Assembly: GCF_946479715.1 (NCBI RefSeq)
Contig: NZ_CAMLHF010000149.1
Coordinates: 1-14,269 of the forward strand
DNA from: an uncultured Pedobacter sp.
Lineage (GTDB): Bacteria > Bacteroidota > Bacteroidia > Sphingobacteriales > Sphingobacteriaceae
Length of the DNA stretch: 14,269 nucleotides
Direction of reading: 5' to 3'
Shown here in pieces: positions 1-14,269 of this stretch; position 1 is the stretch's first letter, and each line of letters opens with the position of its first letter. Below the pieces are notes generated by a model. The model had not been told where the DNA came from. It ran no database searches and saw nothing but the letters and a program-made list of their open reading frames with translations. Made by a program: the position numbers and the translations under genes.

Positions 1-47
1 GAGATCTGTGGTAGTGACTGGAGTTCAGACGTGTGCTCTTCCGATCT
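1..47 (+). other. Illumina P7/TruSeq index adapter (artefact)
   Basis: This is not genomic DNA. Bases 1-5 (GAGAT) match the end of the P7 flow-cell primer, 6-13 (CTGTGGTA) sit where the 8-base i7 index belongs, and 14-47 match the TruSeq read-2 adapter from GTGACTGGAG through to GCTCTTCCGATCT. True insert sequence begins at 48. It implies that position 1 is the raw end of an assembled contig and that adapter trimming failed on at least one read. Confidence 0.98.
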
Positions 48-471
48 AGTCCTGGTAATTTAATTCAAACTTAACCTCTCCATTAGGATAGGTGCCGACT
101 TTGATCCAGCCCTGAAGCTGGTAGAACTGTTCCGCACGGGTATTTGGAGCTGTACCTAATACCACTTTTTCTTTGGTCTGCCCAAAATACCAGTTTATCA
201 TTAGCCTGTGCAATTCCTTACCTATTCCTTTTTCTGCGAATTCAGGATCTACAAAGAGTGCCCAGACGCTTTTGTCGCGTAAGTCGATAATGGAGAAACC
301 TACTATTCGATTGCCCACTTCACAAACCCATCCCTTTCCTTTTTCTGTAATGTAAAATAGTACATCCTTATCAGGAACAAGATCAGGGTTGCTCAGTGTG
401 TTCTCCTTTACCAGATGTCTTACGATCTGGATTTGTTTGATGTCAGCTGGTTCTGCAATTCTGAAATTCAT
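48..471 (-). CDS. GNAT-family N-acetyltransferase, C-terminus cut by contig end
   Basis: This is a probable acetyl-CoA-dependent N-acetyltransferase of the GNAT superfamily; its substrate cannot be told. About 141 residues are visible. The acetyl-CoA-binding motif A is clear: strand VWALFVDPEF followed by the loop EKGIGKEL (the family pattern is Q/RxxGxG/A). A motif-B-like segment NTRAEQFYQLQGW follows and ends in the usual 'aromatic residue plus GF/GW' signature. The start ATG at 469-471 gives an N-terminus of the usual kind (MNFRIAEPADI). The apparent stop (46-48) is false: two of its three bases come from the adapter, so the real protein may extend further. The length already covers nearly all of a GNAT domain. 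It stands alone, with the next minus-strand gene about 230 bases upstream. Confidence 0.85.
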
Positions 472-700
472 ACACTCAAATATATCAATTCTAATCTATG
501 GCTACAGCATAGTCATGGATGAATTGACCGTTAGGATTTTAGCAGCCCGACGCTCTTTTGCAAGTGATGGCCGATAGTGGTACCTACTGCTAGGGTCGGT
601 TGCCGCTATTGTGTGCTTAGCATTGGGATGGAGTGTTCTTGCTTATTATTTTAAATCGGTTTGATTTGAGCCTTGATTGTCACAGGTGCTGATCAATAGC

Positions 701-1399
701 CTAATTAAGGAAAAATCGATTAAGTATCTTTTCCATAAGTTTGTTGATCGGGGGAACATTTGCCAGCTTTTCCTTAATTTCGTCTGCCGATTGCACATAG
801 GCTGAGGGAATCAGATCACCCTTGCAGTGTAGCAACAGGTCAACAATTGTTTCTTCAGTGGCTTCCAGGTGGAACTGCAGGGCTAGTATCTTGTCCTGGT
901 AAAGGTAGGCCTGATGATTGTTGGCAGCGGAGGTCAGCAGATCCTGAGCGCCATATGGGATATCAAATTTATCCCCGTGCCAATGGAAAACAACAGGCCC
1001 CTCTTCAAAAAGGTTACTGAGCCAGTTTTGTGCGGAGAACTGCACATTGGCATGGACCTGATGCCAGCCGATTTCCTTGTGGGTTGCGGGATATACCCGG
1101 GCTCCCAGGCAACTGCTCGCCAGCTGAGCACCCAGGCAGATTCCCAGAATTTTTTTACCTGCAAGGATACATTCCCTGATAAATATTTTTTCGGGCAACA
1201 GCCATGGGTACTTGTCTTCATCATCAACGCTCATCGGGCCACCCATTATGATAACTGCATCGAGCTGGTCGATCTCTGGCAACTGATGTTGTTTCTCGAA
1301 GAACAGGGTATGGCTAAGCGATATATTGTACTGGCTTGCCCATTTTAGAATGTGTCCCGGACCTTCAAACGGGACATGCTGCAGGATATGTATTTTCAT
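701..1399 (-). CDS. Class I glutamine amidotransferase (GMP synthase-like GATase1)
   Basis: This is a stand-alone class I glutamine amidotransferase domain of 232 residues, about the normal size for this group. The triad is intact: nucleophile Cys88 in the elbow KKILGICLGAQL, and His177 and Glu179 in LALQFHLEAT. The GGP turn of the oxyanion region is at 53-55 (IIMGGPMSVDDE). No synthetase or acceptor domain is fused to it. Related GMP-synthase-like proteins (COG0518) act as free amidotransferases or as hydrolases of gamma-glutamyl or other amide substrates; the substrate here is unknown. A Bacteroidota promoter-like box lies about 47 bases upstream of the ATG. Neither flanking gene suggests a pathway. 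The C-terminal 45 residues are less conserved in character and may cap the active site. Confidence 0.88.
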   Translation of the reverse strand: MKIHILQHVPFEGPGHILKWASQYNISLSHTLFFEKQHQLPEIDQLDAVIIMGGPMSVDDEDKYPWLLPEKIFIRECILAGKKILGICLGAQLASSCLGARVYPATHKEIGWHQVHANVQFSAQNWLSNLFEEGPVVFHWHGDKFDIPYGAQDLLTSAANNHQAYLYQDKILALQFHLEATEETIVDLLLHCKGDLIPSAYVQSADEIKEKLANVPPINKLMEKILNRFFLN

Positions 1400-1724
1400 T
1401 TTTCAGGTGCTTTTTTCCTGGTAAAAACTTTCCAGAGATTTTTTTCAAATATAGCTTTCACCAGCTGAATCGGAAATTATCCACCAGGTTTTACCCCTGC
1501 GCCTCTAATTTTTTTTCTTCTGATAAATAGGTAAATGATACTACTGATCAGCGGATCTGGTAGTCTGGACGATCCTGTGATAGCGGGATGAGTTTTTCGT
1601 TCGAAAGCGCACAGAATGTTTGATTTCGGGCATGAGCATAAATGATAGCCTGTCCTATGTGCTTGTATGGCCATTTTTGGGTGGCATAACTCTTGTTTAA
1701 CTGCTGAAGAAAACAAACTGTACC
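1400..1724. other. Intergenic stretch between divergent genes
   Basis: About 325 bases separate the amidotransferase from the aspartic protease gene. Apart from the promoter-like box near 1446-1480, I see nothing defensible. A 79-codon minus-strand reading frame at 1477-1716 has Cys, His, Pro and Arg spread with no domain-like pattern, and I do not call it a gene. Confidence 0.5.
1446..1480 (-). promoter_or_regulatory. Candidate Bacteroidota-type promoter for the amidotransferase
   Basis: On the minus strand TATATTTG (1453-1446) matches the -7 consensus TAnnTTTG. TTTC (1476-1473) lies 19 bases upstream, one mismatch from the -33 TTTG. Transcription would begin about 40 bases before the ATG of the amidotransferase gene. 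Only the sequence match supports this. Confidence 0.45.
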
Positions 1725-3064
1725 ATGCGCATAAATGTGATTAACGATCGATCAGCAAGCCATATTCAGCTGGCTGCGGGCAGGGTTGCCGGGGATTTCA
1801 TTCCGGTTTTAGGGATATGGTTCAGGACGGGGGCGTTGCCGATGATGATTCTGTGCTTACTTTTAGGACAATTTGCCTTTGCACAAAGCCATCTGCCTGT
1901 GATCAGGGCCTCTTCTAAAACGGCCAGTATCAGGGATGGGAAACACCTCAAGAAAAATTATTGGGCGATCATGCCGGAAAGAAAGCCGGATTATTATTAT
2001 GCGGAAATTCCTGAAAGGACGCAAACCATTACCTTTATCACTGATTTGGATTCTATTTCGTTCCCGGTAAGCTACGGAAAGGATTATGATTTCGTCATTT
2101 TGCTGAACGGAAAGGACAGTTGTTTTACCCGCATTTCAACACGGTATAGAGAATTTAATGCGTTTACAAAAGTCAGCTCCACAGCCGCACCAGATACCAT
2201 TCCCTTTACTTTAGGTGACAACCGAAAGCTATATGTGGATGCCATGCTGAATGGCTCCGGGGTTCATCATAATCAGCTTGATCTGGGTGCGGGGGGAACG
2301 CTCATTAACAAAAAGTCTGTCGGGAAAGTGAAGATGAACTTTGATCAGAAAGTGAACCTGGCCAATTCCGATGGGGTGCATGAGGTGCCTTCAGCCAGCA
2401 AGAACGTGCTGCAAATCGGGAACCTGGTTTGGGATAGCATTGGTATTGCTGTTGCAGGTAACATGAAGGATCATGAAGACCTGCTGATCGGAAATTCATT
2501 GTTTAGAGGTAAGGTGCTGGAAGTTAATTACGATAAGAAGCTATTGATTGTTCATGATGCACTTCCCCCTCAGGCTGCTGCTTATTCCCGTCACGATATG
2601 TTACTTGATGGGGGAGTGATCCCTATATCGCAGTTAATCTTAGGGTCAGAAACAAAATGCAAACGGGATGGGTGATGTTTGATACGGGTGCCCGCACATC
2701 GATTTTAAACACTGCGGATTTACCCCTGAGCTACCGCATACTGAATGAACTTGCAGGGATGATTGGTTTAGATGAACAGGTTACCCCTCAACTAACGATC
2801 GGAGATTACCGGCTTTCCCGGTTTGAATACAAGAGCAGGGAAATGGGGGGAGAAGGCCTGAACATGATTCTGGGCAACGATCTGCTGAGCAGGTTTAACC
2901 TGATCATAGACAATAAAAACGGCTATTTGTTTATGAAACCCAATTCGCTGATGGATACGGCTTATAAGAAGCGGGAAGAATACTACGTGGTCAGAACCGC
3001 TGCTGTTCTGTTGGTCTTGCTTACGATACTTGTCATCTGGCTGAAAAGGAGGAGGAAAAAATAA
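1725..3064 (+). pseudogene. Two-lobed retropepsin-like aspartic protease, membrane-anchored, frameshifted
   Basis: One gene is read here in two frames. The first part (1725-2675) has a hydrophobic signal-like segment at residues 40-54 (MMILCLLLGQFAFAQ), an N-terminal domain, and a retropepsin-like lobe from about 168 to 278. Its active-site loop reads QLDLGAGGTLI, so Asp186 is kept but the usual Thr/Ser is Leu. The second part (open from 2609, ending 3064) supplies a second lobe with a canonical loop (VMFDTGARTSI), a matching MILGNDLL turn, and a C-terminal membrane helix followed by KRRRKK. A single missing base in the GGGGG run (2610-2614) or CCC run (2621-2623) joins them into about 446 residues. 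The tandem lobes fit bacterial Asp_protease_2-type proteins. The start is uncertain: ATG 1725 gives a long pre-signal region, and ATGs at 1842/1845 are alternatives. The frameshift may be real decay or a sequencing error. Confidence 0.75.
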
Positions 3065-3631
3065 GGTGGCTCTTTAAAAAACAATGCTCATTAAATTTCA
3101 TTGCTGTTTTGCTATTAAATTGGCGGAAACTCAGATTTTCTGGAGGTTTGCTAATTTGCTTTGATTACGCCTTTGGTATGGGGGTTTAAGGCGCTTAAGA
3201 TAAATTCAGATCAAATATTCATTTCATTAATCCTGCACCAAGGTTGGGGATTATTCCGTATGTGGCCACCTCTTTCGCGGAACGTGGCCTCTATTACGGC
3301 CCAAAATGATCAGTCGATTTCGCTGAAAAGTGGCCAATCGGCTCATTTTAAGCGGTTAAAGACTTCTTTAGACAAGCAGATTTATCAAAAATCGATGCTG
3401 CAATCTCCTTTCAGATCACAAAAACAGCCCCAAGAGCTCCGAAATATACAACTTCTACAAACGAATATTTATAAAGTGCCTGCGGATATAGGTTCAAAAC
3501 CATCGAATATCAGTCTTCGCTTGTGTTGCACTTGGCATACACCGAATTTTAAGGCTGCTTAATAGCATTTATGACCCAAACGCCAGGGTAAGATGGCGAA
3601 GTTTATCTATCAATTTTAAATTTTATTTATT
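3065..3631. other. Gene-free stretch between protease and RiPP precursors
   Basis: I find no convincing gene in these 567 bases. A plus-strand frame at 3161-3562 (133 codons) runs straight through the GTGGCC quasi-repeats and has no domain-like pattern, so it is probably spurious. Just before the first precursor, a short inverted repeat CGCCA/TGGCG (3581-3585 and 3594-3598) lies about 35 bases upstream of the ATG. I could not find a TAnnTTTG box for the precursor operon. Confidence 0.5.
3261..3349. repeat. GTGGCC quasi-repeats, possible IS21-family end remnant
   Basis: Four imperfect units of 22-23 bases run in tandem from 3261. GTGGCC recurs at 3262-3267, 3284-3289 and 3330-3335, and units tend to end in CGCGGAA- or CGCTGAA-like blocks. 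IS21-family elements carry several internally repeated transposase-binding sites at their ends, and in Bacteroidota these often contain GTGGCCA. No istA or istB gene is present in the window, so this would be a solo end or a decayed remnant. The assignment rests on resemblance only. Confidence 0.4.
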
Positions 3632-3829
3632 ATGAAAACAAGCAAGAGCTTATTCGAAAAGAGAATCGAATTAAAAGACTGCCAGATCAATGGTGGTCGG
3701 TTGGCTTCCACGCAAAAAACCACTGCAACCAGTACCTGTGTTGACAACTGTTCAGACACCAGGTACACGGTTAAAGACGACAACAAGACGACGATTCAGG
3801 TTTGTACCGATTATAACTGTCCGGATTAA
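3632..3829 (+). CDS. Grasp-with-spasm RiPP precursor peptide 1 (Cys-rich core)
   Basis: This 65-residue protein looks like a ribosomal peptide precursor. Residues 1-22 form a charged leader ending in the double-glycine site CQINGG. Cleavage after Gly22 by the C39 peptidase encoded downstream would release a 43-residue core. The core is rich in Thr, Ser and Asp (TTATST, DDNKTT), the side chains that ATP-grasp enzymes of graspetide pathways join by omega-ester bonds. It also has four cysteines in two pairs, CVDNC (36/40) and CTDYNC (58/63), which could form disulfides or be modified. The leader matches that of the next gene at 15 of 22 positions, with mostly conservative changes elsewhere, while the core does not. 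It is the first gene of the locus. Bond chemistry is inferred, not seen. Confidence 0.85.
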   Translation: MKTSKSLFEKRIELKDCQINGGRLASTQKTTATSTCVDNCSDTRYTVKDDNKTTIQVCTDYNCPD

Positions 3830-3905
3830 AGCCGGCTCTTAAACAAACAGAAATCATAATCTGAAAAAATTATTCTAATTATTTTATTAAACAAATTTCA
3901 AAAAA

Positions 3906-4115
3906 ATGAAAATTAATAAAGGTTTATTCGAGAAAAAGATCGACTTAAAAAGCTGTCAGATCAACGGAGGCAAACTGGCTTATGGTACCATGAGCGATTG
4001 CCAGATACGAACTGGTACAACCAGTTCCCCGGATACGCATTATACCTATTATAATGATGATGGAAGCATCAGAAGCACCAGAACGGTTTACAATCTTTCA
4101 AATTCCATTGATTAA
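3906..4115 (+). CDS. Grasp-with-spasm RiPP precursor peptide 2
   Basis: This is the second precursor, 69 residues long. Its leader has the same layout as precursor 1 (LFEK, then I-acidic-LK, then CQINGG at 17-22), followed by K/R-LA after the predicted cut. The 47-residue core differs: it has a single cysteine (Cys32), is rich in Thr, Ser, Tyr, Asp and Asn (TGTTSSPDTHYTYYNDDG), and ends in NLSNSID. The many hydroxyl residues next to Asp fit side-chain ester formation by the ATP-grasp maturase. It lies 76 bases after precursor 1 and just before a strong hairpin terminator. The pair suggests one enzyme set acting on two products through a shared leader. Confidence 0.85.
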   Translation: MKINKGLFEKKIDLKSCQINGGKLAYGTMSDCQIRTGTTSSPDTHYTYYNDDGSIRSTRTVYNLSNSID

Positions 4116-4126
4116 GAATTGAAAAT

Positions 4127-4152
4127 AAAATGGAGGTAACGCCTCCATTTTT
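4127..4152 (+). terminator. Rho-independent-type terminator between precursors and enzymes
   Basis: A perfect 10-bp stem AAAATGGAGG (4127-4136) pairs with CCTCCATTTT (4142-4151) around a 5-base loop and ends in a T run. It lies 12 bases after the stop of precursor 2 and about 50 before gwsG. Partial read-through would make the precursors more abundant than the enzymes, a common arrangement in peptide natural product operons. Because the stem starts with A and ends with T, it could also act weakly on the other strand. Confidence 0.75.
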
Positions 4153-4203
4153 AACCGGGTAGTCAGGCAAAATTGATTTTAAACCAGTTTACAATAGATA
4201 AGT

Positions 4204-5136
4204 ATGATCCTAATTTTCTCCATCAGCGACGATTACTCAACAAGCGGGGTAATTAACTGGTTAATAAACCTAAAGAAAGATTTTATACGAATTAATGAAA
4301 ATACCGATGTAAAATTAATTTCTCTTACAGATACAGCCTTCACCCTTCGTATTAATGGTAAAATAGTTTGTAGCAAAGAAATAACAAGGATCTGGTATAG
4401 AAGAGGTGATCTGTTTTTTCAACAAAACTTCGATAGCGAATACCTAAATAACTACCTGTTAAGAGAAAATGAAAGTTTAATGGAATACATCCACTACACT
4501 TTCGATAAAATAGCATCGATAAACAATTTCGCAACCAGAGATGTCAATAAACTTCAGATACTTGATTTATGCAATAAATTTAAAATCCTGACACCAAACT
4601 TTATGGTTAGCGGCAATAAAGATGCTCTGTTAGATTTTTACAACGAAGAAAAAAACATCATCTCCAAACCCTTAAACTCGCCACTGTCTGTTTACGATTC
4701 AGATAACTTTATTCATTTAGCCTATACAACAGAAATCGGCCTGAATGATATCAACGAATTACCAGCTGAGTTTGTCCCTACATTTTTCCAGAAAAATATT
4801 ATAAAAGATTACGAAATAAGGTGTTTTTATCTGGACGGAGATTTCTATGCGATGGCAATCTTTTCACAAAAAAATAAAAAGACCGAAGTAGATTTTAGAA
4901 ACTATGATAATTCAAAGCCAAATCGATTAAATCCCTATCAGTTTCCAAAGTCTTATCAAAAAAAGATTAGGCGGTTGCTGGATCATATCGGCCTGAATTG
5001 TGCTTCATTTGATGTCGTCTATTCTAAAGAAGACCACCAGTATTATTTTTTAGACCTTAACCCTATAGGCCAGTTCGGCATGGTATCCAGCCCCTGCAAC
5101 TATAATCTCGAAAAGGTTCTTGCTTTAAACCTCTGA
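4204..5136 (+). CDS. gwsG: Grasp-with-spasm system ATP-grasp peptide maturase
   Basis: This cytoplasmic ATP-grasp ligase is expected to activate Asp/Glu side chains of the precursor core with ATP and join them to Thr/Ser (ester) or Lys (amide). At 310 residues it has the typical size. The N-terminal domain contains IWYRRG (63-68), a hallmark of graspetide-type ligases. NKLQIL (115-120) and IISKP with Lys155 suit nucleotide binding. The C-terminal catalytic part has YEIRCFYLDG (203-212), DFRNYD (230-235), FDVVYS (269-274) and the metal-binding strand LDLNPIGQFG (283-292, Asp284 and Asn286). It follows the precursor terminator by about 50 bases and leads a tight set of genes running through the exporter. 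Assignment to the grasp-with-spasm type relies on the adjacent SPASM maturase and the shared-leader precursors. Confidence 0.9.
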   Translation: MILIFSISDDYSTSGVINWLINLKKDFIRINENTDVKLISLTDTAFTLRINGKIVCSKEITRIWYRRGDLFFQQNFDSEYLNNYLLRENESLMEYIHYTFDKIASINNFATRDVNKLQILDLCNKFKILTPNFMVSGNKDALLDFYNEEKNIISKPLNSPLSVYDSDNFIHLAYTTEIGLNDINELPAEFVPTFFQKNIIKDYEIRCFYLDGDFYAMAIFSQKNKKTEVDFRNYDNSKPNRLNPYQFPKSYQKKIRRLLDHIGLNCASFDVVYSKEDHQYYFLDLNPIGQFGMVSSPCNYNLEKVLALNL

Positions 5137-5137
5137 T

Positions 5138-5299
5138 ATGAAAAAAATTAAAGTCGAAATACAAAAAGGAGTAGCGCCTGTTCATTTAAAATCTTTAATC
5201 AAGAAAGAAAGGCCTGCCTACCTCATTAAAACCAGACCATCAAAAATTTTTGCCACCAATAGTTTACAATTAGACCTATTTTATAAATCGCCGTTATGA
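5138..5299 (+). CDS. 53-residue basic small protein between gwsG and gwsS
   Basis: This is a small gene, short enough to be missed by ordinary gene callers. ATG 5138 lies one base after the gwsG stop, and its TGA (5297-5299) overlaps the gwsS ATG as ATGA, the classic arrangement for translational coupling. The protein starts MKKIKVEIQKGVAPVHLKSL and continues with PAYLIKTRPSKIF before ending FYKSPL. It has 10 Lys and 2 Arg against 3 acidic residues, no Cys, no signal peptide and no membrane helix, so it is probably cytosolic. I recognise no family. It may be an accessory factor or partner of the maturases, or a very short adaptor; it is too short for a full RRE domain and has no GG leader site, so it is not a third precursor of the same kind. 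That it is translated is inferred from spacing alone. Confidence 0.65.
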   Translation: MKKIKVEIQKGVAPVHLKSLIKKERPAYLIKTRPSKIFATNSLQLDLFYKSPL

Positions 5300-6384
5300 G
5301 TAAATTCTTTCTACGAAACCAGTTATGTATTCCGGTTAAAGGTTACAATAGGGCAATCATTTATGATATACTTCGAAAAGATTATTTCTTCATTCCGAAA
5401 GCGCATTTTCACATTTTAGATACGGATGATTTCATCGACTTTAATAAAATCGAAGACGATGAAGAAAGGCAATCCCTTATTGATTTTTTAATTAACGAAG
5501 AAATCGTATTCGAACTTGCCGATCGAAACCAGAAACAATGCTTTACAGCGCTCAACAGAAAGCTGGAAGTGCCTAATAAAATCACAAACATCGTACTGCA
5601 TTCCAATGTAGACCTTAATTTCTTTGATTGCATCAAAGATGAATATATTCTAAACCTATCCATTATTGCCCCTCAGGTAGATGATAACCTGTTTAAAGTT
5701 TTAAAAAGGATAGATACTCTTGAAGTGGATAGTATTTACCTATACATCGAAAACTTCGATCGCGACAATTTAGAAGATCATCGTAAACGGCTAAGCGATT
5801 ATAACTTAGTTTTTTCCGTTAACTTTTTCAATTCAAAAAATAGTACAGAAAAAACCGAGCTGTATCAAAACGTCTATTTCAACTATTTTGATGAAGAATT
5901 TGCCACCTATAAATGCAAATTAACGATAGATAAACTAGGTGTTAATACAGCACATTTTTTAGAAGCCTACAACTTTCACTCCTACTATTTTGGCAAGGTG
6001 TACATTGATAGCGATGGGAACATTAAAAATGGCTTAAACAATACCTTAAGCTTTGGCCAGGTTACATCAACCACTTCAGCACAGTTTTTAAATTTAGTCT
6101 CATCCGATCAGTTCCAGGAACTGGGAAATGTTCAGAAAGAGAATATGCTGGTTTGTTGTGATTGCGAATTCAGGTATATGTGTGTAGACAGTCGGGTTCC
6201 TGTTAAAGGTATTGACAAGTGGTATCATCCAATCGAATGCAATTACAATCCGTATTTATCAAAATGGGAAGATGAGGATGAATATCTTAATCTAAATCAT
6301 TCTGGAGTTACCATTTCAGCCTCTGGATGCTTGATAGATGAGGAAAAGTTGTCTCAAAAATTCAATAGTATCTGGTCTGCTTAA
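5296..6384 (+). CDS. gwsS: Grasp-with-spasm system SPASM-domain peptide maturase
   Basis: This is the second maturase of the system, 362 residues. Only the C-terminal part looks like a known domain: LSFGQV at 251-256 and a cysteine cluster (Cys287, 288, 290 and 296 in MLVCCDCEFRYMC, then Cys315 in YHPIECNYNP), the pattern of a SPASM auxiliary iron-sulfur domain. No CxxxCxxC motif is present: the other cysteines are at 11, 82, 112, 207 and 345. It therefore lacks the cluster that makes a radical SAM enzyme active. The N-terminal 100 residues (LCIPVKGYNRAIIYD onward) may bind the leader, as in PqqD-like or peptide-binding regions; this is inference. It overlaps the upstream small gene by 4 bases and ends one base before the exporter ATG. 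Confidence 0.88.
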   Translation: MSKFFLRNQLCIPVKGYNRAIIYDILRKDYFFIPKAHFHILDTDDFIDFNKIEDDEERQSLIDFLINEEIVFELADRNQKQCFTALNRKLEVPNKITNIVLHSNVDLNFFDCIKDEYILNLSIIAPQVDDNLFKVLKRIDTLEVDSIYLYIENFDRDNLEDHRKRLSDYNLVFSVNFFNSKNSTEKTELYQNVYFNYFDEEFATYKCKLTIDKLGVNTAHFLEAYNFHSYYFGKVYIDSDGNIKNGLNNTLSFGQVTSTTSAQFLNLVSSDQFQELGNVQKENMLVCCDCEFRYMCVDSRVPVKGIDKWYHPIECNYNPYLSKWEDEDEYLNLNHSGVTISASGCLIDEEKLSQKFNSIWSA

Positions 6385-6385
6385 T

Positions 6386-8578
6386 ATGAAAAAATTCCCC
6401 TTTTTTAAACAGCCTGACGCTAAGGATTGCGGTCCTACCTGCCTGCGCATTATAGCCAGGCACTATCATAAAAGTATTCCGTTACAACTCATCAGAACGC
6501 TTTCTGAAACTACCAGAGAAGGAAGTGGTTTGATGGGGCTTAGTCATGCAGCGGAGCGTTTGGGGTTTAGAACATTGGGTGTTAAGATAGATTTCAATAT
6601 GCTGGTTGCAGATGCACCCTTGCCTTGTATTGTGCATTGGAATAAAAACCACTATGTCGTAGTTTATAAAATTGATAAAGCAGGTCAGGTGTATGTTTCA
6701 GATCCCAGTTTTGGTTTAATTACTTATACCAAAGAAGAATTTTTAAAATGTTGGATTGGAGAAAATGCGCACGACAATACAGAAGAAGGCATTGCGCTGA
6801 TTTTAGAAACCAGCCCGTCATTTTATCAAAATGATTTTGAAGATGAAGTGAAGAAAACAAGTTTTTCTTTCTTATACCGCTATTTACTGAAGTATAAAGC
6901 GTTGGTTCTTCAGCTTGCGGTTGGACTCTTAGCGGGAAGTTTATTATCGCTTATTTTTCCATTTCTTACACAAAGCATTGTTGATGTTGGTATCCAAAAC
7001 CAGGACATTAACTTCATTTACATGGTTTTGCTGGCTCAGGTGATGCTTTTCATTGGCAAAATGGGGATAGACATTATCCGTAGCTGGATTTTGTTACATC
7101 TATCTACAAGGATTAATATCTCCATTGTTTCCGATTTTTTTATCAAGTTAATGAAACTTCCCATCAGTTTCTTTGATACGAGAATGAATGGAGATATTAT
7201 GCAGAGAATCAACGACCACCATAGAATAGAACAATTACTCACCAACTCATCACTTAACACATTATTCTCACTGGTAAATTTGTTCATTTTTAGTATCGTA
7301 CTGTTTCTGTATGATTATCGGTTATTTATAGTTTACTTATTTGGTGCCGTCATGTACGTGGGATGGATCAGTTTTTTTCTTAAAAAACGAAAGGAATTAG
7401 ATTATAGAATGTTTTCTCAGGTTTCACAGGAACAAAGTATGGTTATTGAGCTGATAAATGGCATGCAGGAGATAAAAATGCATAATGCGGAAAAACAAAA
7501 AAGATGGGGCTGGGAATTTTTACAGGTAAAGTTATTTAAAATCAAAATCAAGTCTCTTTCATTAGAGCAATGGCAATCTGTCGGCGGTGGTTTCATCAAC
7601 CAAATAAAAGATATTTTAGTGAGTTTTCTCGCTGCAAAACTGGTTTTGAGCGGTAATCTTACTTTGGGTATGATGCTTTCTGTACAATATATCATTGGTC
7701 AGCTAAATAGCCCTTTATTGCAATTAATAGATTTTATCAAACAAACACAAGATGCCAAAATCTCGCTGGAAAGACTGGGGGAAATTCATGACAAAGAGAA
7801 CGAAGAGGGTGATGAAGAACAATACGCTGTTGAAATCCCGCAAAAAGATATCGAATTAAATGATATTTCATTTAGATATACTGGATCTGATTCATTTGTT
7901 TTTCAAGGTCTGAACCTGGCTATTCCTTATCAAAAAACCACAGCAATAGTAGGTGCAAGTGGTAGTGGTAAAACTACACTATTGAAGCTGTTAACAAAAT
8001 TTTATGAACCTGACAAAGGCGAAATAAAAATTGGGAATACAGACATGAAAAATATCTCTCCGAGATATTGGCGAGACCATTGTGGTGTAGTTATGCAGGA
8101 GAGCTATGTATTTAATGATACCATTGCCAATAATATCGCTATTGGTGAAGATGCGGTAGACAAGCAAAAGTTGAGAAAAGCGATAGAAATTGCCAACATA
8201 CAGGACTTTATTGAAAGTCTGCCGTTGAGCTATAATACCAAAATTGGAAATGAGGGCATTGGCGTAAGCGGCGGACAAAAACAGCGGCTATTTATAGCGA
8301 GAGCTGTTTATAAATCACCTGATTACATTTTCTTTGATGAGGCTACAAGTGCACTAGATGCAAACAACGAAAAGATTATTATCGAAAACCTAGAGCAGTT
8401 TTTTAAGGGAAAAACAGCTATAGTAATAGCCCACAGACTTTCTACGGTTAAGCATGCTGATAAAATTATTGTGTTAGATAAAGGGATGGTTGTAGAAGAA
8501 GGCAGCCACAGCCAGTTGGTGGCAAAAAAAGGAGAATATTATAGATTAATAAAAAACCAGCTTGAACTTGGAAACTAG
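6386..8578 (+). CDS. C39-peptidase ABC transporter (bacteriocin-type exporter)
   Basis: This inner-membrane exporter both cuts double-glycine leaders and pumps out the product. The ATG at 6386 (730 residues) is chosen because it is one base after the gwsS stop and gives a normal C39 start; a longer frame from 6338 would run into gwsS. The peptidase C39 domain (1-135) has Gln9, catalytic Cys15 (AKDCGPTCLRI), His89 (NKNHYVVV) and Asp106 (VSDPSFG). Membrane helices span about 170-440. The ATPase has Walker A GASGSGKT (523-530), Q-loop Gln571, signature VSGGQ (627-631), Walker B YIFFDE (647-652) and switch His683. All catalytic parts are intact. The GG site of both precursors (CQINGG) is a fitting substrate. 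The HlyD gene starts inside its last 17 bases. Confidence 0.95.
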   Translation: MKKFPFFKQPDAKDCGPTCLRIIARHYHKSIPLQLIRTLSETTREGSGLMGLSHAAERLGFRTLGVKIDFNMLVADAPLPCIVHWNKNHYVVVYKIDKAGQVYVSDPSFGLITYTKEEFLKCWIGENAHDNTEEGIALILETSPSFYQNDFEDEVKKTSFSFLYRYLLKYKALVLQLAVGLLAGSLLSLIFPFLTQSIVDVGIQNQDINFIYMVLLAQVMLFIGKMGIDIIRSWILLHLSTRINISIVSDFFIKLMKLPISFFDTRMNGDIMQRINDHHRIEQLLTNSSLNTLFSLVNLFIFSIVLFLYDYRLFIVYLFGAVMYVGWISFFLKKRKELDYRMFSQVSQEQSMVIELINGMQEIKMHNAEKQKRWGWEFLQVKLFKIKIKSLSLEQWQSVGGGFINQIKDILVSFLAAKLVLSGNLTLGMMLSVQYIIGQLNSPLLQLIDFIKQTQDAKISLERLGEIHDKENEEGDEEQYAVEIPQKDIELNDISFRYTGSDSFVFQGLNLAIPYQKTTAIVGASGSGKTTLLKLLTKFYEPDKGEIKIGNTDMKNISPRYWRDHCGVVMQESYVFNDTIANNIAIGEDAVDKQKLRKAIEIANIQDFIESLPLSYNTKIGNEGIGVSGGQKQRLFIARAVYKSPDYIFFDEATSALDANNEKIIIENLEQFFKGKTAIVIAHRLSTVKHADKIIVLDKGMVVEEGSHSQLVAKKGEYYRLIKNQLELGN

Positions 8579-9875
8579 AAGAGACAAATTGGATGAAATA
8601 GAACTTCGATCGGAGGTCGTGCAGGATGTTTTGGCAGAACCACCACATTGGATGGTACGCTGGGGCAACGTTGTTGCTTTGTCCATAATTTTGATGGTTT
8701 TATTGATGAGCTATTTCATCAGATATCCGGAGTTTGTGCCTGCTTCCATTATCGTAACCTCACAAAATCCGCCGGAAAAGCTCGAAGCAAGAACTGATTC
8801 CAGGATTGAGAAAATCTTCATCAAAGATCACCAACAAGTAAAGAAAGGTGAAGTATTAATGGTTTTACAATCTACAGCAAATTATAAAGACCTTTTGGAA
8901 CTAAAAAAAATCACGGATTCTACTTCTTCGCATCAATTGTTTTCATTTCCGGTTGATAAGATTTCTGACTTTAAATTAGGAGAAATCCAAAGTGATTACA
9001 ATGCTTTTGCAAAAGCATTTCAGGACGAAAAGTTGTTTACAAGACTTCGCCCTTATGCTCCTGAAAATGTAGCCGCTGATCAAAATATTGCCGAATACAG
9101 GAGCAGGATAGTAACGCTAAAACAACAAAAAGATCTGGAACTTGCAAAATATGAACTGATAAGGAAAAATTATCAGCGTTCACAAAAGCTTTTTAGCCAA
9201 AATGTCATTTCTACAATGGAATTGGAAAGTGAAAGGATTAAATTTTTACAAGCACAGCAAAGTTTAGAAAATATCAATATCTCTTTATCCCAAACAGAAG
9301 AAGGTATTTCCAATCTCCATAAAACAAAAAGTGGGGCAACCATAAATGCTGAAAAGGACAAGGTCAATTATGCTTCTCAAACTTTACAGCTGTTTGAGCA
9401 GTTAAGAAAGTCATTAAAACAATGGGAGCAAAGTTACCTGATTGTTTCCTCTACAGATGGTACCGCAAGTTTTCAGCAGTTCTGGGGAGAAAACCAGTTC
9501 GTAAAAAGGGGGAATGCTATTTTATCTATTTTGCCTGACGATAAGAAAACGCTGATTGGGAAAATGTCTGTTTCTGCAACCAATTCCGGAAAAATTTCTC
9601 ATGGCGTAAAGGTTTTGATCAAGCTAGACAACTATCCTTATCAGGAATATGGTATTGTGGAAGGAAGGGTTCAAAATGTATCTTTGACCCCCGATGAAAA
9701 AGGAAATTATTATGTAGATGTTATTCTTTCTAAAGGACTGAAAACTTCTTATTCCAGGAACCTCATTTTTGACAAAGAACTAAGTGGCAAGGCCGAAATC
9801 GTAACCCAGGATTTAAGATTAATTGAACGGGTTTTCTATCAGATCAGAAAACTTTTAAGATACCAGACTCAGTAG
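8562..9875 (+). CDS. HlyD-family membrane fusion/secretion adaptor
   Basis: This is the periplasmic adaptor that would join the ABC exporter to an outer-membrane channel. There are 437 residues from a TTG start at 8562, which overlaps the end of the exporter gene by 17 bases; TTG at 8568 or 8589 is also possible, and the first in-frame ATG is only at Met31. A short cytosolic N-terminus is followed by one membrane helix (about 35-53). The first half of the lipoyl domain spans about 72-104 (EARTDSRIEKIFIKDHQQVK then KGEVLMVL). A long helical hairpin covers about 170-290, the second lipoyl half about 292-325, and a beta-barrel region (GVKVLIKLDNYPYQEYG, 348-364) runs towards the C-terminus. No TolC-like gene is in the window, so a shared outer-membrane channel is likely. 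Confidence 0.92.
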   Translation: MNLETRRDKLDEIELRSEVVQDVLAEPPHWMVRWGNVVALSIILMVLLMSYFIRYPEFVPASIIVTSQNPPEKLEARTDSRIEKIFIKDHQQVKKGEVLMVLQSTANYKDLLELKKITDSTSSHQLFSFPVDKISDFKLGEIQSDYNAFAKAFQDEKLFTRLRPYAPENVAADQNIAEYRSRIVTLKQQKDLELAKYELIRKNYQRSQKLFSQNVISTMELESERIKFLQAQQSLENINISLSQTEEGISNLHKTKSGATINAEKDKVNYASQTLQLFEQLRKSLKQWEQSYLIVSSTDGTASFQQFWGENQFVKRGNAILSILPDDKKTLIGKMSVSATNSGKISHGVKVLIKLDNYPYQEYGIVEGRVQNVSLTPDEKGNYYVDVILSKGLKTSYSRNLIFDKELSGKAEIVTQDLRLIERVFYQIRKLLRYQTQ

Positions 9876-9880
9876 ATTTG
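9873..9880 (+). promoter_or_regulatory. Possible -7 box for the sensor kinase gene
   Basis: TAGATTTG matches TAnnTTTG and overlaps the HlyD stop codon, 42 bases before the kinase ATG. No good -33 box is present (TTTT at 9853-9856 is too close). Next to it TGTTAA occurs twice, 9 bases apart (9881-9886 and 9890-9895), a possible regulator site. This may let the two-component genes be transcribed separately from the exporter genes. Confidence 0.3.
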
Positions 9881-9922
9881 TGTTAAATATGTTAACAATT
9901 TTAATCACCTTTAAAATATATA

Positions 9923-11842
9923 ATGTTTTCGTTAATGAATAGTGCATCAACCGCTTTTGCCCGTTTTCTGCTTTGTGGCATTTTGATTGTCAGTGCATGC
10001 AGTAATGGAGAAAACGCAACTAAAGTAAAAAATAAGCGTACGTCGGCAGCCCCTTCAGAAAAAGATTATCTGGCCACAATTATTGCTTTGGACACCCTAT
10101 CAAATGAGGCTTATAAAAAGGCAATTGATAAAGAATACAGCCTTTTCAAAGTTCATGATAGTAGTACCGAACCTTACTTTCATTATTTTAAAGCAAGAAA
10201 GTATCTGTTGGAAAGGAAACCGGATAGTGCTGTTGCAGAATATCAGAAAATGAAAGGCAGAGCACCAAATGATGAGGTGGAACTATTGAAGTCTTATAGC
10301 ATTTTGGGTAAGAGTTTTGGTGATGGACTAATGGTCGAATCAACATTAATGAGGAAAATATTTGATGCTATGGAAGTTTCAGAAAAGGTTCATAGCCGCA
10401 TCACTTATCGGTTTTATGATTTATTGGCTAAAGCTTATTTCCAAAATAACAATGAAAAAAAATCGCTGGAGTACTCGGCACTATATTTTAAAAATCACCC
10501 ATACAACGCCCATGTGGTTGTTAAACAGCGGTATTACGACATTTCTTTTCTGCTGGCATCGCGACTGGGAGATTTTAAAAAAATGAAGTTTTATAATAGT
10601 ATGGCTCGTGAACTGGCTTTTAAAATTAGTGATAGCCTTGCCATTGCCCGTACCTACGACAATGAATCGCAAATTTATGCCCGCCAAAATCAGACTAAAA
10701 AATCTGTCGAGTATAGCAGGATATATTTCAATTATCTAAAAAGAACCAATAATCTGAATGACATTGCCTACAACAACCTGGCAACATCCTTTATTCAAAA
10801 TAAGCAACCTGATTCAGCCATTAAATACTACAAGGAGGGTATTGAGCTCGAAAAAAAGAATAAGTTTAAGAAGCAAAAAGGGTTGTACTACCAGGGGCTT
10901 AGAGAAGCTTACTTACTAAAGCATGATTATGTAAAGGCGATGGAGGCTGCAGATTCTGCCTATACTATAGAAATAAGGAATTATAATGCAATTGAGGCTG
11001 TTAAGGTTGCAGAGATGCAGGAGAAATACGAAACTGAAAAAAAAGATCAGAACATTATAGCTTTGAACAGCCGAAATGAGTTAAATGAAACCATTATAAA
11101 ACAGCAACGGTGGACACTTGCTTTGTTAACCCTGGTATTTCTATGCTTACTTTCTTTTTTTTATATCATTTACCGCCAACAGCGTTTAAAAGGAAAAAAT
11201 ACGTTATTGAAATCCGAAAATCAAAGATTAAATATTGAACAAAAGTTATTACAAGCTCAATTGAACCCCCACTTTATTTTTAATGCCATTGCCAATCTGC
11301 AGAGTTTAATTGCCTCGGGTCATGGTGAGGAGTCAATTTGCTATCTTAACTCATTTTCAGGTCTGCTACGCAGAGTCTTGGAGCAAAACCGAATGGATTT
11401 TATTGAGCTGGGTGAAGAATTAAATTCTTTAAATGATTACATCCAGCTGCAGCAAATGCGATATGTGGGTGTATTTAATTATGAGGTTATTGTGGATGAA
11501 GACTTAAGCCCTGAACATATACTTATTCCGCCCATGCTTATACAACCCTTTGTAGAGAATGCCATAGAACATGGCTTCAGGTATATCAACTATAAAGGAG
11601 TTTTGACGATATCGTTTAACAGAAAAAACGAAATGCTCGTGATAAAGGTGGACGATAACGGAAGCGGATTTAAGAACGATGTAAACAACAAAAATAAGCA
11701 GTCGTTGGCTCATGTTATTTTGAAAGAGCGATTAACATTGCTCTTTACATCGAGTGGGCAGGCAGCAGACTTTACCGTTAAAGATAAAATGGAAGGCAAG
11801 GGTGTAATTGCCGAAATCATCATACCTATCATTGAGGAATAA
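9923..11842 (+). CDS. TPR-containing LytS-type sensor histidine kinase
   Basis: This is a membrane sensor kinase of the LytS/His_kinase type, 639 residues. The N-terminus has a lipoprotein-like signal (FLLCGILIVSAC, lipobox VSAC with Cys26). A long helical repeat region of TPR character (about 85-355; for example PDSAVAEYQKM and QPDSAIKYYKEGIELEKK) is predicted to face the periplasm. A membrane helix at about 396-417 follows, then a coiled-coil linker. The kinase core has the phospho-acceptor His450 in QLNPHFIFNAI, the N-box with Asn546 (LIQPFVENAIEHG), and the G1 box VDDNGSGF (576-583). Its partner is the LytTR regulator 12 bases downstream. The TPR region may sense a peptide, perhaps the product of this locus, but that is inference. 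Confidence 0.93.
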   Translation: MFSLMNSASTAFARFLLCGILIVSACSNGENATKVKNKRTSAAPSEKDYLATIIALDTLSNEAYKKAIDKEYSLFKVHDSSTEPYFHYFKARKYLLERKPDSAVAEYQKMKGRAPNDEVELLKSYSILGKSFGDGLMVESTLMRKIFDAMEVSEKVHSRITYRFYDLLAKAYFQNNNEKKSLEYSALYFKNHPYNAHVVVKQRYYDISFLLASRLGDFKKMKFYNSMARELAFKISDSLAIARTYDNESQIYARQNQTKKSVEYSRIYFNYLKRTNNLNDIAYNNLATSFIQNKQPDSAIKYYKEGIELEKKNKFKKQKGLYYQGLREAYLLKHDYVKAMEAADSAYTIEIRNYNAIEAVKVAEMQEKYETEKKDQNIIALNSRNELNETIIKQQRWTLALLTLVFLCLLSFFYIIYRQQRLKGKNTLLKSENQRLNIEQKLLQAQLNPHFIFNAIANLQSLIASGHGEESICYLNSFSGLLRRVLEQNRMDFIELGEELNSLNDYIQLQQMRYVGVFNYEVIVDEDLSPEHILIPPMLIQPFVENAIEHGFRYINYKGVLTISFNRKNEMLVIKVDDNGSGFKNDVNNKNKQSLAHVILKERLTLLFTSSGQAADFTVKDKMEGKGVIAEIIIPIIEE

Positions 11843-11854
11843 AAAACAACAAAA

Positions 11855-12601
11855 ATGAAGCTATATATCCTGGAAGATGAAGCGAGAATTATGCAGCATA
11901 TTTTGCAGATCGTACAAAAAATCAACTATCTCGAAATAGTAGGTACCTCAGATAAGATTTCTGCAGCTGCAATAGAGATCCCTGTGTTAGCCCCTGATAT
12001 TATCCTGGCAGATATCCGGTTAAAAGATGGGGATAGCTTTGAACTTTTCGATAAAATTGGACTGATTGATTTTCAGGTCATTTTTCTTACCGCCTATGAT
12101 CAGTATGCCATTCAAGCATTGAACCTGGGTGCTTTTGGTTATTTGCTTAAACCCATTGATGAAGTTTCCTTAAACGCCATTTTGAATAAATGTTTTCATC
12201 ATAGGGAACAAGAGAACTTCAGTCAAAATCAATTGGCCATTGCAAAGGCACATTACCTTGCACAGGGGATAGGCTCAGCCCGCCGTATTGCTTTAAAAAG
12301 TATCGAATGCATTGAAATTGTTGCCATAGACGATGTTGTATCCTGTAAGGGTGACAGGGGGTATACTACTTTTTATTTAAAGGATGGGAAGGAAATTCTG
12401 GTTTCCAAAGGTCTGAAAGAATATGAATATTTACTTACACCATTTGGGTTTTTGAGATGCCACCAATCTTACCTGGTAAATTTTCGCTACGTTAAAAAGT
12501 ATTATCGCGAAGGGTATTTACAGATGGAGAATAAAGAACAGATTCCGGTTTCAAGCAGAAAGAAAGAAGAGGTAATTCAGTATCTGGAGAATATTGCATG
12601 A
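11855..12601 (+). CDS. LytTR-family response regulator
   Basis: This is the cytoplasmic partner of the upstream kinase, 248 residues, the normal size for the LytR/AlgR group. The receiver domain (1-120) has acidic residues Glu7/Asp8, phospho-acceptor Asp53 (IILADIRLKDG), Thr79 (FLTAYDQYA) and Lys99 (YLLKPID), so it should be phosphorylated normally. The C-terminal LytTR DNA-binding domain (about 145-246) shows VVSCKGDRGYTTFYLKDGKE, then FGFLRCHQSYLVNFRYVKKY and QIPVSSRKKEEV, the typical landmarks. Such regulators bind direct repeats roughly one helical turn apart. An array of 11-bp repeats lies about 180 bases downstream of its stop. Likely targets are the precursor or exporter genes, but no binding site can be assigned from sequence alone. 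Confidence 0.95.
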   Translation: MKLYILEDEARIMQHILQIVQKINYLEIVGTSDKISAAAIEIPVLAPDIILADIRLKDGDSFELFDKIGLIDFQVIFLTAYDQYAIQALNLGAFGYLLKPIDEVSLNAILNKCFHHREQENFSQNQLAIAKAHYLAQGIGSARRIALKSIECIEIVAIDDVVSCKGDRGYTTFYLKDGKEILVSKGLKEYEYLLTPFGFLRCHQSYLVNFRYVKKYYREGYLQMENKEQIPVSSRKKEEVIQYLENIA

Positions 12602-12783
12602 TCCTGAATTATATTAAGAACATACGGTGAAGAGGGATGGTTGTCTTACTAATTAGCTGGTGGGTATACTTCAAAAAACCAAAAACAATTAGCATACGTT
12701 AATTGTTGTACGCAAATCACCTACATTTTGCCGGAAAAACCAGTGTCAGGCCATAGGTATCGTTCGGTTCAGGCTTATTAATA

Positions 12784-12838
12784 ACAGGTGTTTCACAGGT
12801 GTATTACTGGTGTTTAACAGGTATGCGACTGGTGTACA
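12784..12838. repeat. Five tandem 11-bp repeats, ACWGGTNNNNN
   Basis: Five units follow each other without gaps: ACAGGTGTTTC, ACAGGTGTATT, ACTGGTGTTTA, ACAGGTATGCG, ACTGGTGTACA. The first six bases fit ACWGGT in every copy, and four of five continue GT. The 11-bp period places each unit on about the same face of the helix, as in a protein-binding array. The copies have diverged, so this is not a fresh slippage product. Function is unknown. Confidence 0.75.
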
Positions 12839-12942
12839 CACATATGAAACTCGAGTTTAATTCGAGTGAGGCTCGGGTGTCGGACCAGTGGCTAATAAAC
12901 CCTAACCGAAGCCTGCCCAAATCCGTAGTATAAATGGATGTT

Positions 12943-12982
12943 AAAACCATCCTATTGATTGTCAAAAAATCGGATGGTTTTT
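12943..12982 (+). terminator. Bidirectional terminator-like hairpin between convergent operons
   Basis: AAAACCATCC (12943-12952) pairs with GGATGGTTTT (12972-12981), a perfect 10-bp stem with a 19-base loop, followed by T on the plus strand. The minus strand also ends in TTTT. It suits termination of the kinase/regulator transcript and back-stopping of the minus-strand operon. The long loop lowers confidence. Confidence 0.5.
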
Positions 12983-13030
12983 GGTTTAGTTTTAGATTGA
13001 GAAAGGAAGCGTTTTGCGGCATATAACATA

Positions 13031-13138
13031 GTCGGTTTTTGCTGCACTCTGAGACCGACATTGTTCGGACCTCGTTCGACCAGAGCCGAACATGTAGCGA
13101 ACTAGAGTGGTACCAGGTCCGAATGACCTGAACCACCC
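13031..13138. repeat. Block of interlocking inverted repeats (possible structured RNA or repeat element)
   Basis: Several complementary pairs lie within about 110 bases: GTCGGT/ACCGAC (13031-13036, 13054-13059), CACTCT/AGAGTG (13045-13050, 13104-13109), TGTTCGG/CCGAACA (13062-13068, 13086-13092), GTTCG/CGAAC (13074-13078, 13098-13102) and TTCGGACCT/AGGTCCGAA (13064-13072, 13115-13123). A strong hairpin at 13107-13136 has GTGGT and CAGGTC pairing with GACCTG and ACCAC. Some pairs are mutually exclusive. No tRNA or known riboswitch pattern is visible. Confidence 0.4.
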
Positions 13139-13149
13139 AAAAAGAAGGC

Positions 13150-13178
13150 AAAAAAATTTAAAGTTTGAGCTTAAATTT
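13150..13178 (-). terminator. AT-rich terminator at the end of the minus-strand operon
   Basis: On the minus strand an 8-bp stem (13178-13171 with 13161-13154, loop of 9) begins at the stop codon of the immunity-like gene and runs into seven Ts (13156-13150). The stem has no G:C pairs, so it is weak. Position and T run support it. Confidence 0.45.
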
Positions 13179-13512
13179 TATTAATGTTTTGCAGTTTTCG
13201 TAACTTTTGCAAAGCCTCTCTAACCCTGATTTTTACCTCATTTTCATTAAAATCAATTAAATTGACATTAATAAAATCATCTCGTTCATACAAGTAATCC
13301 AGGGAGTAATCTCTCACATCCAGATAAAGCGTATCTAAAACCTTTCCAATTCTTTCGTCAAACTTTCCCGACTGCCAATACTCATCCTGAGATTTTATTT
13401 GTAGAAATACCTGTTCAAATTCAGGCACTTCAATTTTTCCGGAACATAGCAACGAGAGCAGATACAGATACTTCTGCAGGTGTATTTTGTCTAATAACTT
13501 TATATTATCCAT
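13171..13512 (-). CDS. Colicin D immunity-like small protein
   Basis: This is a 113-residue, probably cytosolic, helical protein without signal peptide or cysteine-metal motif. The layout recalls colicin D immunity proteins: an N-terminal helical part with LCSGKIEVPEFEQVF, a middle helix GKVLDTLYLDVRDYSLD, and a C-terminal stretch NENEVKIRVREALQKLRKL that resembles the end of ImmD (LKVEVRSILEKF). Members of that family neutralise nuclease toxins by binding the active site. No toxin gene is visible here. The ATG (13510-13512) lies within the last codons of the upstream gene (8-base overlap), so the two are probably translated together. The family call is from remembered similarity and is moderate. 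Confidence 0.55.
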   Translation of the reverse strand: MDNIKLLDKIHLQKYLYLLSLLCSGKIEVPEFEQVFLQIKSQDEYWQSGKFDERIGKVLDTLYLDVRDYSLDYLYERDDFINVNLIDFNENEVKIRVREALQKLRKLQNINKI

Positions 13513-13963
13513 CTATGTCTTTTATGATCATGCAGTTTTCATTGCCTCTTTTATCCACTGTTATCATGTAATCAGGAAATTCCATATTCAGGTTTTGCTG
13601 CATAATGGTATAAAAACCAGCTATTTGCTGTTGTGGCACAAACAGCTTGTAACATCTGATCTCTTGTAGCTTTTTAGGCTCCATTACCTCAATAATGATC
13701 TGTTCTTTGCTGATGGGTGTACCAGCTCCATAAGCAATGGCAAAGAGCTGCTCAACGGTGTAATTGCGAACAGTGATGGTCTTGCCTCTGTTGGCGATTT
13801 CCTTTTTGATCTTAAAGCCTGGTTTGTAGCCAGATTTAAAGCCACAGAAACCATATTGGTATAGTTGTAACTGGTTTTGTGCGGCTGATTTTTCTTTGAT
13901 TTGGCCATAACTAAAGTTTAAGCATATGGTAGCCATTACAAAGGTTAGTTTGGTAGTTTTCAT
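13505..13963 (-). CDS. Secreted DUF3738-like protein
   Basis: This is a 152-residue protein with an N-terminal signal peptide (KLTFVMATICLNFSYGQ, likely cut near residue 20), so periplasmic or exported. The body contains TITVRNYTVEQLFAIAYGAG followed by PISKEQIIIEV and, later, FYTIMQQNLNMEFPDYMITV. This order (a 'YTxxxLxxxAYG' helix, then a hydrophobic strand, then a short-length 'MQQNL' segment) resembles DUF3738 domains, which in Bacteroidota often accompany TlpA/thioredoxin-like proteins, as here. No enzymatic function is known for that domain. Three cysteines in the mature part (in FCGF, RCYK and NCMI) could form a disulfide. It begins 6 bases after the stop of the thioredoxin-like gene and overlaps the immunity-like gene by 8 bases. 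Confidence 0.6.
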   Translation of the reverse strand: MKTTKLTFVMATICLNFSYGQIKEKSAAQNQLQLYQYGFCGFKSGYKPGFKIKKEIANRGKTITVRNYTVEQLFAIAYGAGTPISKEQIIIEVMEPKKLQEIRCYKLFVPQQQIAGFYTIMQQNLNMEFPDYMITVDKRGNENCMIIKDIDG

Positions 13964-13969
13964 GTGTGT

Positions 13970-14269
13970 TTATAATTTGGTAATTACTTTAAGTAGATTA
14001 AATTCTTCTGTCCAGAACTCTTCTGAGGTATGCTTGCCGTAAGCTTTGTATTGCACTATTCCATTTTTGGTGATCATGAACTGATGTGCATCCAGGCTGT
14101 TCTTGGGAACTGGCAAGGTGCTTTCTTCTTCGGGATCTAAGGTGATGAATGCCCAGTCGTCATATTTCAGCAACATCTTTTTTAAAAGGTCCTGGCCAGG
14201 CGGGCTGTTGTAGTATCCCAAAGGTGCATCCCAATAGCAGTGGTGATTTAAACCGCTGTTTTCTTTAAA
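13970..14269 (-). CDS. Thioredoxin-like (TlpA/redoxin-type) protein, N-terminus outside window
   Basis: The reading frame is open to the window edge, so only the last 99 codons are seen; a TTG at 14219-14221 is not a needed start because coding continues upstream of it. The visible part fits the C-terminal half of a thioredoxin fold: a strand DDWAFITLDPEE, a likely cis-Pro region (STLPVPKNSLDAHQ), then FMITKNGIVQYKAYG, matching the 'fvID.dG.i......G' strand pair of TlpA-like proteins, and a final helix SEEFWTEEFNLLKVITKL. The CxxC active site would lie upstream; one Cys (in HHCYWDAP) is visible near the edge. It probably heads or continues the operon with the DUF3738-like gene, suggesting a periplasmic redox role. 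Confidence 0.55.
   Translation of the reverse strand, partial: FKENSGLNHHCYWDAPLGYYNSPPGQDLLKKMLLKYDDWAFITLDPEEESTLPVPKNSLDAHQFMITKNGIVQYKAYGKHTSEEFWTEEFNLLKVITKL

Follow-up and report, generated by a model that had tools for sequence, protein, structure and literature searches.

A predicted graspetide cluster of the grasp-with-spasm class in an uncultured Pedobacter, with a SPASM protein that lacks the radical-SAM motif

The window analysed here is a stretch of 14,269 nucleotides from an uncultured Pedobacter sp. (contig NZ_CAMLHF010000149.1 of assembly GCF_946479715.1, positions 1 to 14,269). A first-pass annotation, made from the letters alone, had read positions 3632 to 12601 as a complete grasp-with-spasm locus, that is, a cluster for ribosomally synthesized and post-translationally modified peptides (RiPPs), with its own exporter and two-component system. 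The genes named there were all found on the plus strand, in the order and over the span claimed (Table 1). The class assignment also holds, as the ligase passes the TIGR04192 model and precedes a SPASM protein gene, with double-glycine (GG) precursors upstream and a C39 exporter; the layout runs from the precursors to the ligase, a small gene and the SPASM gene. The earlier gene list lacks, however, a small conserved gene that separates the ligase gene from that of the SPASM protein. The likely role of the cluster is to produce and export small peptides tied into rings. The reading favoured here, with a probability of about 0.65, is that of a graspetide cluster (graspetides being RiPPs with side-chain ester rings) in which the SPASM protein, GwsS, is a non-radical partner that combines a domain like the RiPP recognition element (RRE) with a SPASM domain.

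Table 1. Features of the cluster in the window (aa, amino acids; nt, nucleotides).
Feature	Position	Strand	Remarks
Precursor gene A1	3632..3829	+	65 aa; precedes A2
Precursor gene A2	3906..4115	+	69 aa
Hairpin after the last precursor gene	4127..4151	+	stem search and dinucleotide shuffles
gwsG, ATP-grasp graspetide synthetase	4204..5136	+	TIGR04192
53-aa small-protein gene	5138..5299	+	4-nt overlap with gwsS
gwsS-like SPASM protein gene	5296..6384	+	TIGR04193 below cut-off; structure model
Aux II-type cysteine set of GwsS	6154..6240	+	homologue alignment
C39-peptidase ABC exporter	6386..8578	+	PF03412, PF00664, PF00005
HlyD-type adaptor, TTG start	8562..9875	+	PF13437, PF13533
LytS-type sensor histidine kinase	9923..11842	+	PF06580
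LytTR response regulator	11855..12601	+	PF00072, PF04397

The annotated span corresponds to a natural unit, since positions 3459-12597 are collinear with a locus of Pedobacter panaciterrae (L001). The match (9,163 columns at 82.8%) starts some 170 bases ahead of A1 and stops just short of the end of the regulator gene, and the flanks have no match at E 1e-10 to the 7.2 kb and 2.8 kb flanking L001, except for a 110-base piece (3245-3353). The unit occupies different surroundings in these two close relatives, and the gene set is portable. P. panaciterrae also carries the nearest species-named homologue of the SPASM protein (91% by tblastn). A search of plasmid records returned distant ligases only (best 33.6% identity), and the window contains no tRNA and no Rfam family above its gathering score.

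For the two maturases, a check against profile models had been proposed, and its outcome is divided: GwsG passes, while GwsS reaches 122.1 bits against TIGR04193 (E 3.4e-35), below the cut-off of 175. The orthologues of P. panaciterrae and P. zeae likewise score below it (119.9 and 105.5 bits). The predicted structure of GwsS is of high confidence (predicted local distance difference test, pLDDT, 93.8; predicted template modelling score, pTM, 0.88), and its domains, with fold matches drawn from the first 1000 chains of Foldseek, are an RRE-like domain (residues ~3-81), a shortened barrel of the radical S-adenosylmethionine (SAM) type (~92-215) and a SPASM domain (~218-330). The loop leading from the first barrel strand (98-102) to the next helix (109-112) is short and carries no cysteine trio. 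The CX3CX2C radical-SAM motif is absent from all 194 rows of a GwsS alignment (120 listed of the 257 protein matches, 73 locus proteins and the window, of which 179 differ), and also from the open frames of at least 180 codons in the window, where no radical-SAM partner was found elsewhere. Among 21 relatives, minus-strand frames with the motif lie ~6 kb (L011, L012) and ~7.6 kb (L015) upstream of gwsS; by their sequence motifs these are presumably unrelated. As the radical-SAM motif is lacking, GwsS is by its sequence not a radical-SAM enzyme and is not to be counted as a radical maturase.

What GwsS does retain is a cysteine set of the auxiliary cluster II (Aux II) type, C287-x2-C290-x5-C296-x18-C315, with all four cysteines present in 193 of the 194 rows. 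The Aux I cysteines (equivalent to 255, 276 and 330 of anSME, with the Aux I and Aux II ligands assigned after the accessible part of PMC5491770) are missing in the window and, as a set, in 144 rows altogether, a similar set being present in the other 50. Arg300 occupies the position of the Aux I ligand Cys330 and is Arg in 185 rows. A further cysteine, C11 (window 5326-5328), which falls within the initial strands of the RRE-like domain, is conserved in 179 of the 194 rows and has no obvious role. That GwsS is still an enzyme, whose Aux II-type cluster (with Aux I in some relatives) performs a redox or unusual SAM-dependent step on core Cys, Thr or Asp, such as thioether formation, is unlikely. 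The retention of the SPASM cysteines would fit such a role, as would the presence of at least one Cys in 59 of the 60 cores described below, and the available text of PMC8939145 classes the family among the radical SAM enzymes and suggests that it forms thioethers. Against this stand the missing CX3CX2C motif, the Arg at the Aux I position and a precedent in the accessible part of PMC5491770, where the KW_cyclase mutant without radical-SAM cysteines was the sole variant that yielded no product. For the core cysteines, disulphides formed after export are the simpler guess, because the longer frames of the window lack the radical-SAM motif.

The ligase GwsG, in turn, scores 277.2 bits against TIGR04192 (cut-off 230) and looks intact in its alignment, which comprises 148 rows (120 listed of 619 matching ligases and 28 from another alignment, with some overlap). 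Nine polar positions (K155, Q196, K201, E204, R206, D230, R232, D270 and N286), which we take from the general ATP-grasp fold to be ATP, metal or substrate residues, are invariant in all 148. The closest solved structures by sequence are four ligases of the microviridin/chryseoviridin type, MdnC (5ig9), 5ig8, AMdnB (7m4s) and CdnC (7mgv). According to the available part of PMC7823629, MdnC (5ig9) is activated by a leader helix with the sequence PFFARFL, which E191, D192 and N195 hold in place. D192 aligns with D182 of GwsG; 69 of the 148 rows have Asp at this position and 15 have Glu, so that, judged from the alignment, the acidic leader-binding site is only partly retained across the ligase family.

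Precursor A1 consists of the leader MKTSKSLFEKRIELKDCQINGG and a 43-residue core with four Cys, and A2 of a leader of the same type and a 47-residue core, both core lengths after GG being those given in the first-pass annotation. Relative to their orthologues in L001, nonsynonymous (dN) and synonymous (dS) divergence is 0.08 and 0.45 for A1, and 0.02 and 0.26 for A2. A wider set was assembled from the window and 21 relatives (22 loci), in which 60 of 76 candidates were kept, three being removed by hand. The core pattern D-x(2,3)-T-x(2,4)-[DN][DES] occurs in 34 of these 60, including both precursors of the window, compared to a mean of 3.9 and a maximum of 11 in a shuffled control, the pattern having been picked after the cores were inspected. 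The remaining 26 cores include, by reading, ten of an AETGT...NPD type and twelve of an HGCTVT-like type. The Thr/Asp pattern fits Thr-Asp esters without proving them, and the ester rings are a prediction. The leaders of 59 of the 60 precursors are free of Pro, the sole exception being that of L015, the start of which is doubtful, and these precursors lack the PFFARFL-type leader motif of the microviridin family. A leader Cys at position -6 was considered as a fixed signal and dropped, as this position is Cys in 28 and Ser in 24 of the 60.

The 53-aa gene omitted from the first-pass annotation fills the gap between the gwsG stop and the gwsS start. Its length of 53 codons and its 4-nt overlap with gwsS are constant in the window and the 17 close Pedobacter loci. 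On a broader scale, an open reading frame (ORF) of 48-95 aa is present in the ligase-SPASM gap of 67 out of 69 intact gene pairs (both genes present, GwsS start found, score at least 100, profile start at most 10, gap at most 600 nt), whereas in 50 rounds of gap shuffling with dinucleotides kept, 5.1 gaps were filled on average and 9 at most; the rule demands an ORF, not homology. The two pairs lacking such an ORF by this rule are L040 and L060, and inspection of L060 by eye revealed a complete small ORF which begins ~54 nt inside gwsG and was missed. L035, with a gap of 1,127 nt, was excluded from the count; its gap contains a 371-aa ORF (2726-3841) with VPLYF near the start and a longer protein following on from there, in which the small protein may be fused to the product of another gene. 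Compared to L001, the small gene of the window has a dN of 0.016 and a dS of 0.206 (ratio 0.08), and ratios of 0.15 to 0.24 were obtained against five other Pedobacter loci. These low ratios indicate that the gene is translated and under purifying selection in Pedobacter.

The small protein has no convincing match in Pfam, NCBIfam or PHROG. A motif Pro is found in 60 of the 67 small proteins (it is absent in L033, L036, L044, L053, one of the two in L056, L065 and L069) and an aromatic-aromatic-Lys/Arg sequence close to the end in 54. In a hand-picked alignment of 28 of the 67 copies Pro14 is invariant, and one Thr and one Lys are nearly so; in the window Pro14 is followed by VHLKSL. The structure model is weak (pLDDT 78.2, pTM 0.34), with helices at 2-10 and 15-19, and agrees with a helix after Pro14. 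For branch 5, the available text of PMC8939145 describes a family termed 'LPL', the gene of which always immediately precedes that of the SPASM protein; a PqqD-like role is suggested for the family, and its motif is described as resembling the Phh motif, which the branch 5 precursors lack. By its position, we take the 53-aa gene for a putative member of the LPL family. It is improbable that the gene codes for an additional precursor or for an immunity peptide and not for a partner in biosynthesis. A small gene in a RiPP operon, with no convincing family match and with GG in two of the 67 relatives' proteins, would suit either role, but the copy in the window has no GG, the slot before gwsS is filled in nearly all pairs whereas precursors vary freely, the aligned copies have a motif in common, and no signal peptide is recognized by reading.

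The ORF of the exporter opens at 6338 and has its likely start, MKKFPFFKQPDAKDCGPTC, at 6386; the protein is a full-length relative of the solved bacteriocin transporter 4ry2. Matches above the gathering scores were obtained for Peptidase_C39, ABC_membrane, ABC_tran, HlyD_3, His_kinase, Response_reg and LytTR, while the TPR matches of the kinase are weak and below theirs. The kinase/regulator pair lies downstream in L001, as in the window. Eleven other Pedobacter loci (L002-L010, L019, L027) have it upstream in divergent orientation, and no such pair was found in the retrieved flanks of L011, L012, L013, L014 and L076, although L013 has a kinase match farther away. Linkage of the pair thus extends to 12 of the 17 close Pedobacter relatives, with two arrangements, and its travelling with the cluster in L001 and its upstream linkage in the 11 others bear out the earlier attribution of both exporter and two-component system to the unit. 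The gwsS stop at 6384 abuts the likely exporter start, an arrangement that would also suit GwsS and the small protein being export chaperones which pass the modified precursor to the C39 exporter and take no part in ring formation. This is improbable, as some distant relatives (e.g. L024, L034 and L046) keep GwsG beside GwsS with no exporter found in the retrieved stretch.

A second feature passed over in the first-pass annotation is a hairpin that separates the last precursor gene from gwsG. The window and 16 of the 17 close relatives (all except L007) were inspected for it, and it recurs in each of these 17 Pedobacter loci. Its stem sequences are unrelated between species. It is more stable than the mean of 100 shuffles, at z -3.8 to -8.2, in 16 of the 17 loci, the hairpin of L004 lying outside the 110 nt tested; for L010 one of the 100 shuffles was as low, and for the window none of 100 dinucleotide shuffles was equally stable. 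A simple terminator scan lists the stem of the window on the minus strand only. The hairpin is likely a partial terminator or attenuator, by which more precursor than enzyme is made. As to promoters, two of the sigma-70 type were detected in the window, against a shuffled mean of 8.1, and a Bacteroidetes-type pattern had no match in the window.

Taken as a graspetide cluster with a non-radical RRE/SPASM partner, the unit would function as follows. GwsS would bind the precursor leader via its RRE-like domain and hand the core to GwsG, with its residual iron-sulphur (or metal) site in a structural role. GwsG would phosphorylate Asp/Glu side chains and link them to Thr/Ser as rings, with the 53-aa protein as a putative third partner, and the exporter would cut the leader off after GG and export the core. 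The hairpin would keep precursor output above enzyme output, and the kinase/regulator pair would turn the unit on. If the SPASM protein is such a partner, it is a mistake to expect thioether or radical chemistry, and experiments with co-expressed genes would need both GwsS and the small protein. An ordinary member of the class, with a standard radical maturase missed by the motif search, or a decaying locus, is highly improbable: the TIGR04193 match is still significant, but the high-confidence GwsS model has only a short loop at 102-109 with no cysteine trio, and dN is well under dS versus L001 in the five genes tested (both precursors, gwsG, the small gene and gwsS), so that there is no sign of decay, dS being saturated in many comparisons beyond L001.

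A more specific proposal, which we regard as tentative, is that the leader function is split. The 53-aa protein would supply in trans the Pro-capped helix that activates GwsG, while GwsS would be a dead radical-SAM recruiting subunit, together forming a three-protein synthetase, and the precursor's own leader would be freed to serve GwsS and the exporter. The PVHLKSL of the Pedobacter clade agrees with PFFARFL in having Pro at position 1, a basic residue at position 5 and Leu at position 7. According to the available part of PMC13003496, tailoring enzymes can be activated in vitro by leader peptides that are added separately, and the leader of a graspetide is still functional when shifted to the C-terminus. 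Several observations weigh against the proposal: Lys at position 5 is found in only 15 and Leu at 7 in 17 of the 28 aligned small proteins, seven of the 67 are without the Pro, the small-protein model is weak, and no fusion of ligase and small protein was seen, by a rule of tail length and motif, among the 120 listed ligase homologues. If true, such a split would show how a synthetase uncouples from the leader of its substrate, so far done artificially by chemists.

Outside the cluster, an aspartyl-protease-like gene at 1725-3064 (weak gag-asp_proteas and RVP matches) is split over the frames 1725-2675 and 2657-3064, and is either a frameshifted gene or affected by a sequencing error. The 110 bases at 3245-3353 have 77% identity to positions 2429-2535 of L001, lie outside the collinear block and have no match in plasmid records; they may be the end of a mobile element or a repeat near the left edge of the block. 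The G+C content is ~45% left of the cluster (1-3000) compared to ~34-38% within it (3500-12600) and to its right, which is in line with a junction near that edge. Just past the cluster, on the minus strand (13171-13512), a 113-aa protein with a match to Colicin_immun (PF09204) is encoded. It had no tblastn match in the 79 loci fetched and is probably the product of an unrelated immunity gene.

This kind of cluster is already known, and the window represents a divergent variant of it. Grasp-with-spasm clusters are not rare: of 201 genomes belonging to the family of P. panaciterrae, 28 have a TIGR04193 match, which exceeds the cut-off in 20, and several close GwsS homologues carry the NCBI name 'hypothetical protein'. 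In the literature searched, which included few subscription papers, neither a described product nor a characterised SPASM protein or small partner was found. What seems new is the family-wide lack of the radical-SAM motif combined with a confident fold, and the divergent subclade with a single cluster site, together with the selection evidence for the small gene and the recurrent hairpin.

The grasp-with-spasm loci of branch 5, as presented in the available text of PMC8939145, have the same ligase, SPASM protein, small protein, GG precursors, C39 exporter and HlyD adaptor, but the SPASM protein of the window falls below the TIGR04193 cut-off and lacks the Aux I cysteines. The window has a LytS/LytTR pair, whereas an OmpR-type regulator is reported there as specific to branch 5. 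The same text places a protein of the cluster-23 type in almost all branch 5 loci; a Flavobacteriaceae lipoprotein, taken by position for this type, matched nothing significantly in the window (best E 3.7). The microviridin and chryseoviridin systems (MdnC, MdnB, CdnC) share a related ATP-grasp synthetase with the window, where by contrast the leaders lack PFFARFL, the cores by reading lack TxKxPSD, and extra partner proteins are present. The rosaritide enzyme MirB is likewise a graspetide synthetase that needs a partner, MirC, with a weakly RRE-like N-domain (PMC13097080, as far as its text is available). MirC has a chaperone-type domain and was predicted to be a peptidyl-prolyl isomerase, while GwsS combines an RRE-like domain with a radical-SAM/SPASM-type fold devoid of the motif. 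SuiB, TigE and CteB, maturases with RRE, radical-SAM and SPASM domains, resemble GwsS in domain order and fold; GwsS differs from them in lacking CX3CX2C, in its shorter barrel and in having one auxiliary cysteine site instead of two. PqqD and PqqE, finally, are comparable in the notion that a small carrier serves a SPASM protein, as the accessible part of PMC8939145 proposes for LPL, but here an RRE-like domain is located inside GwsS itself, and the small protein therefore need not be the equivalent of PqqD.

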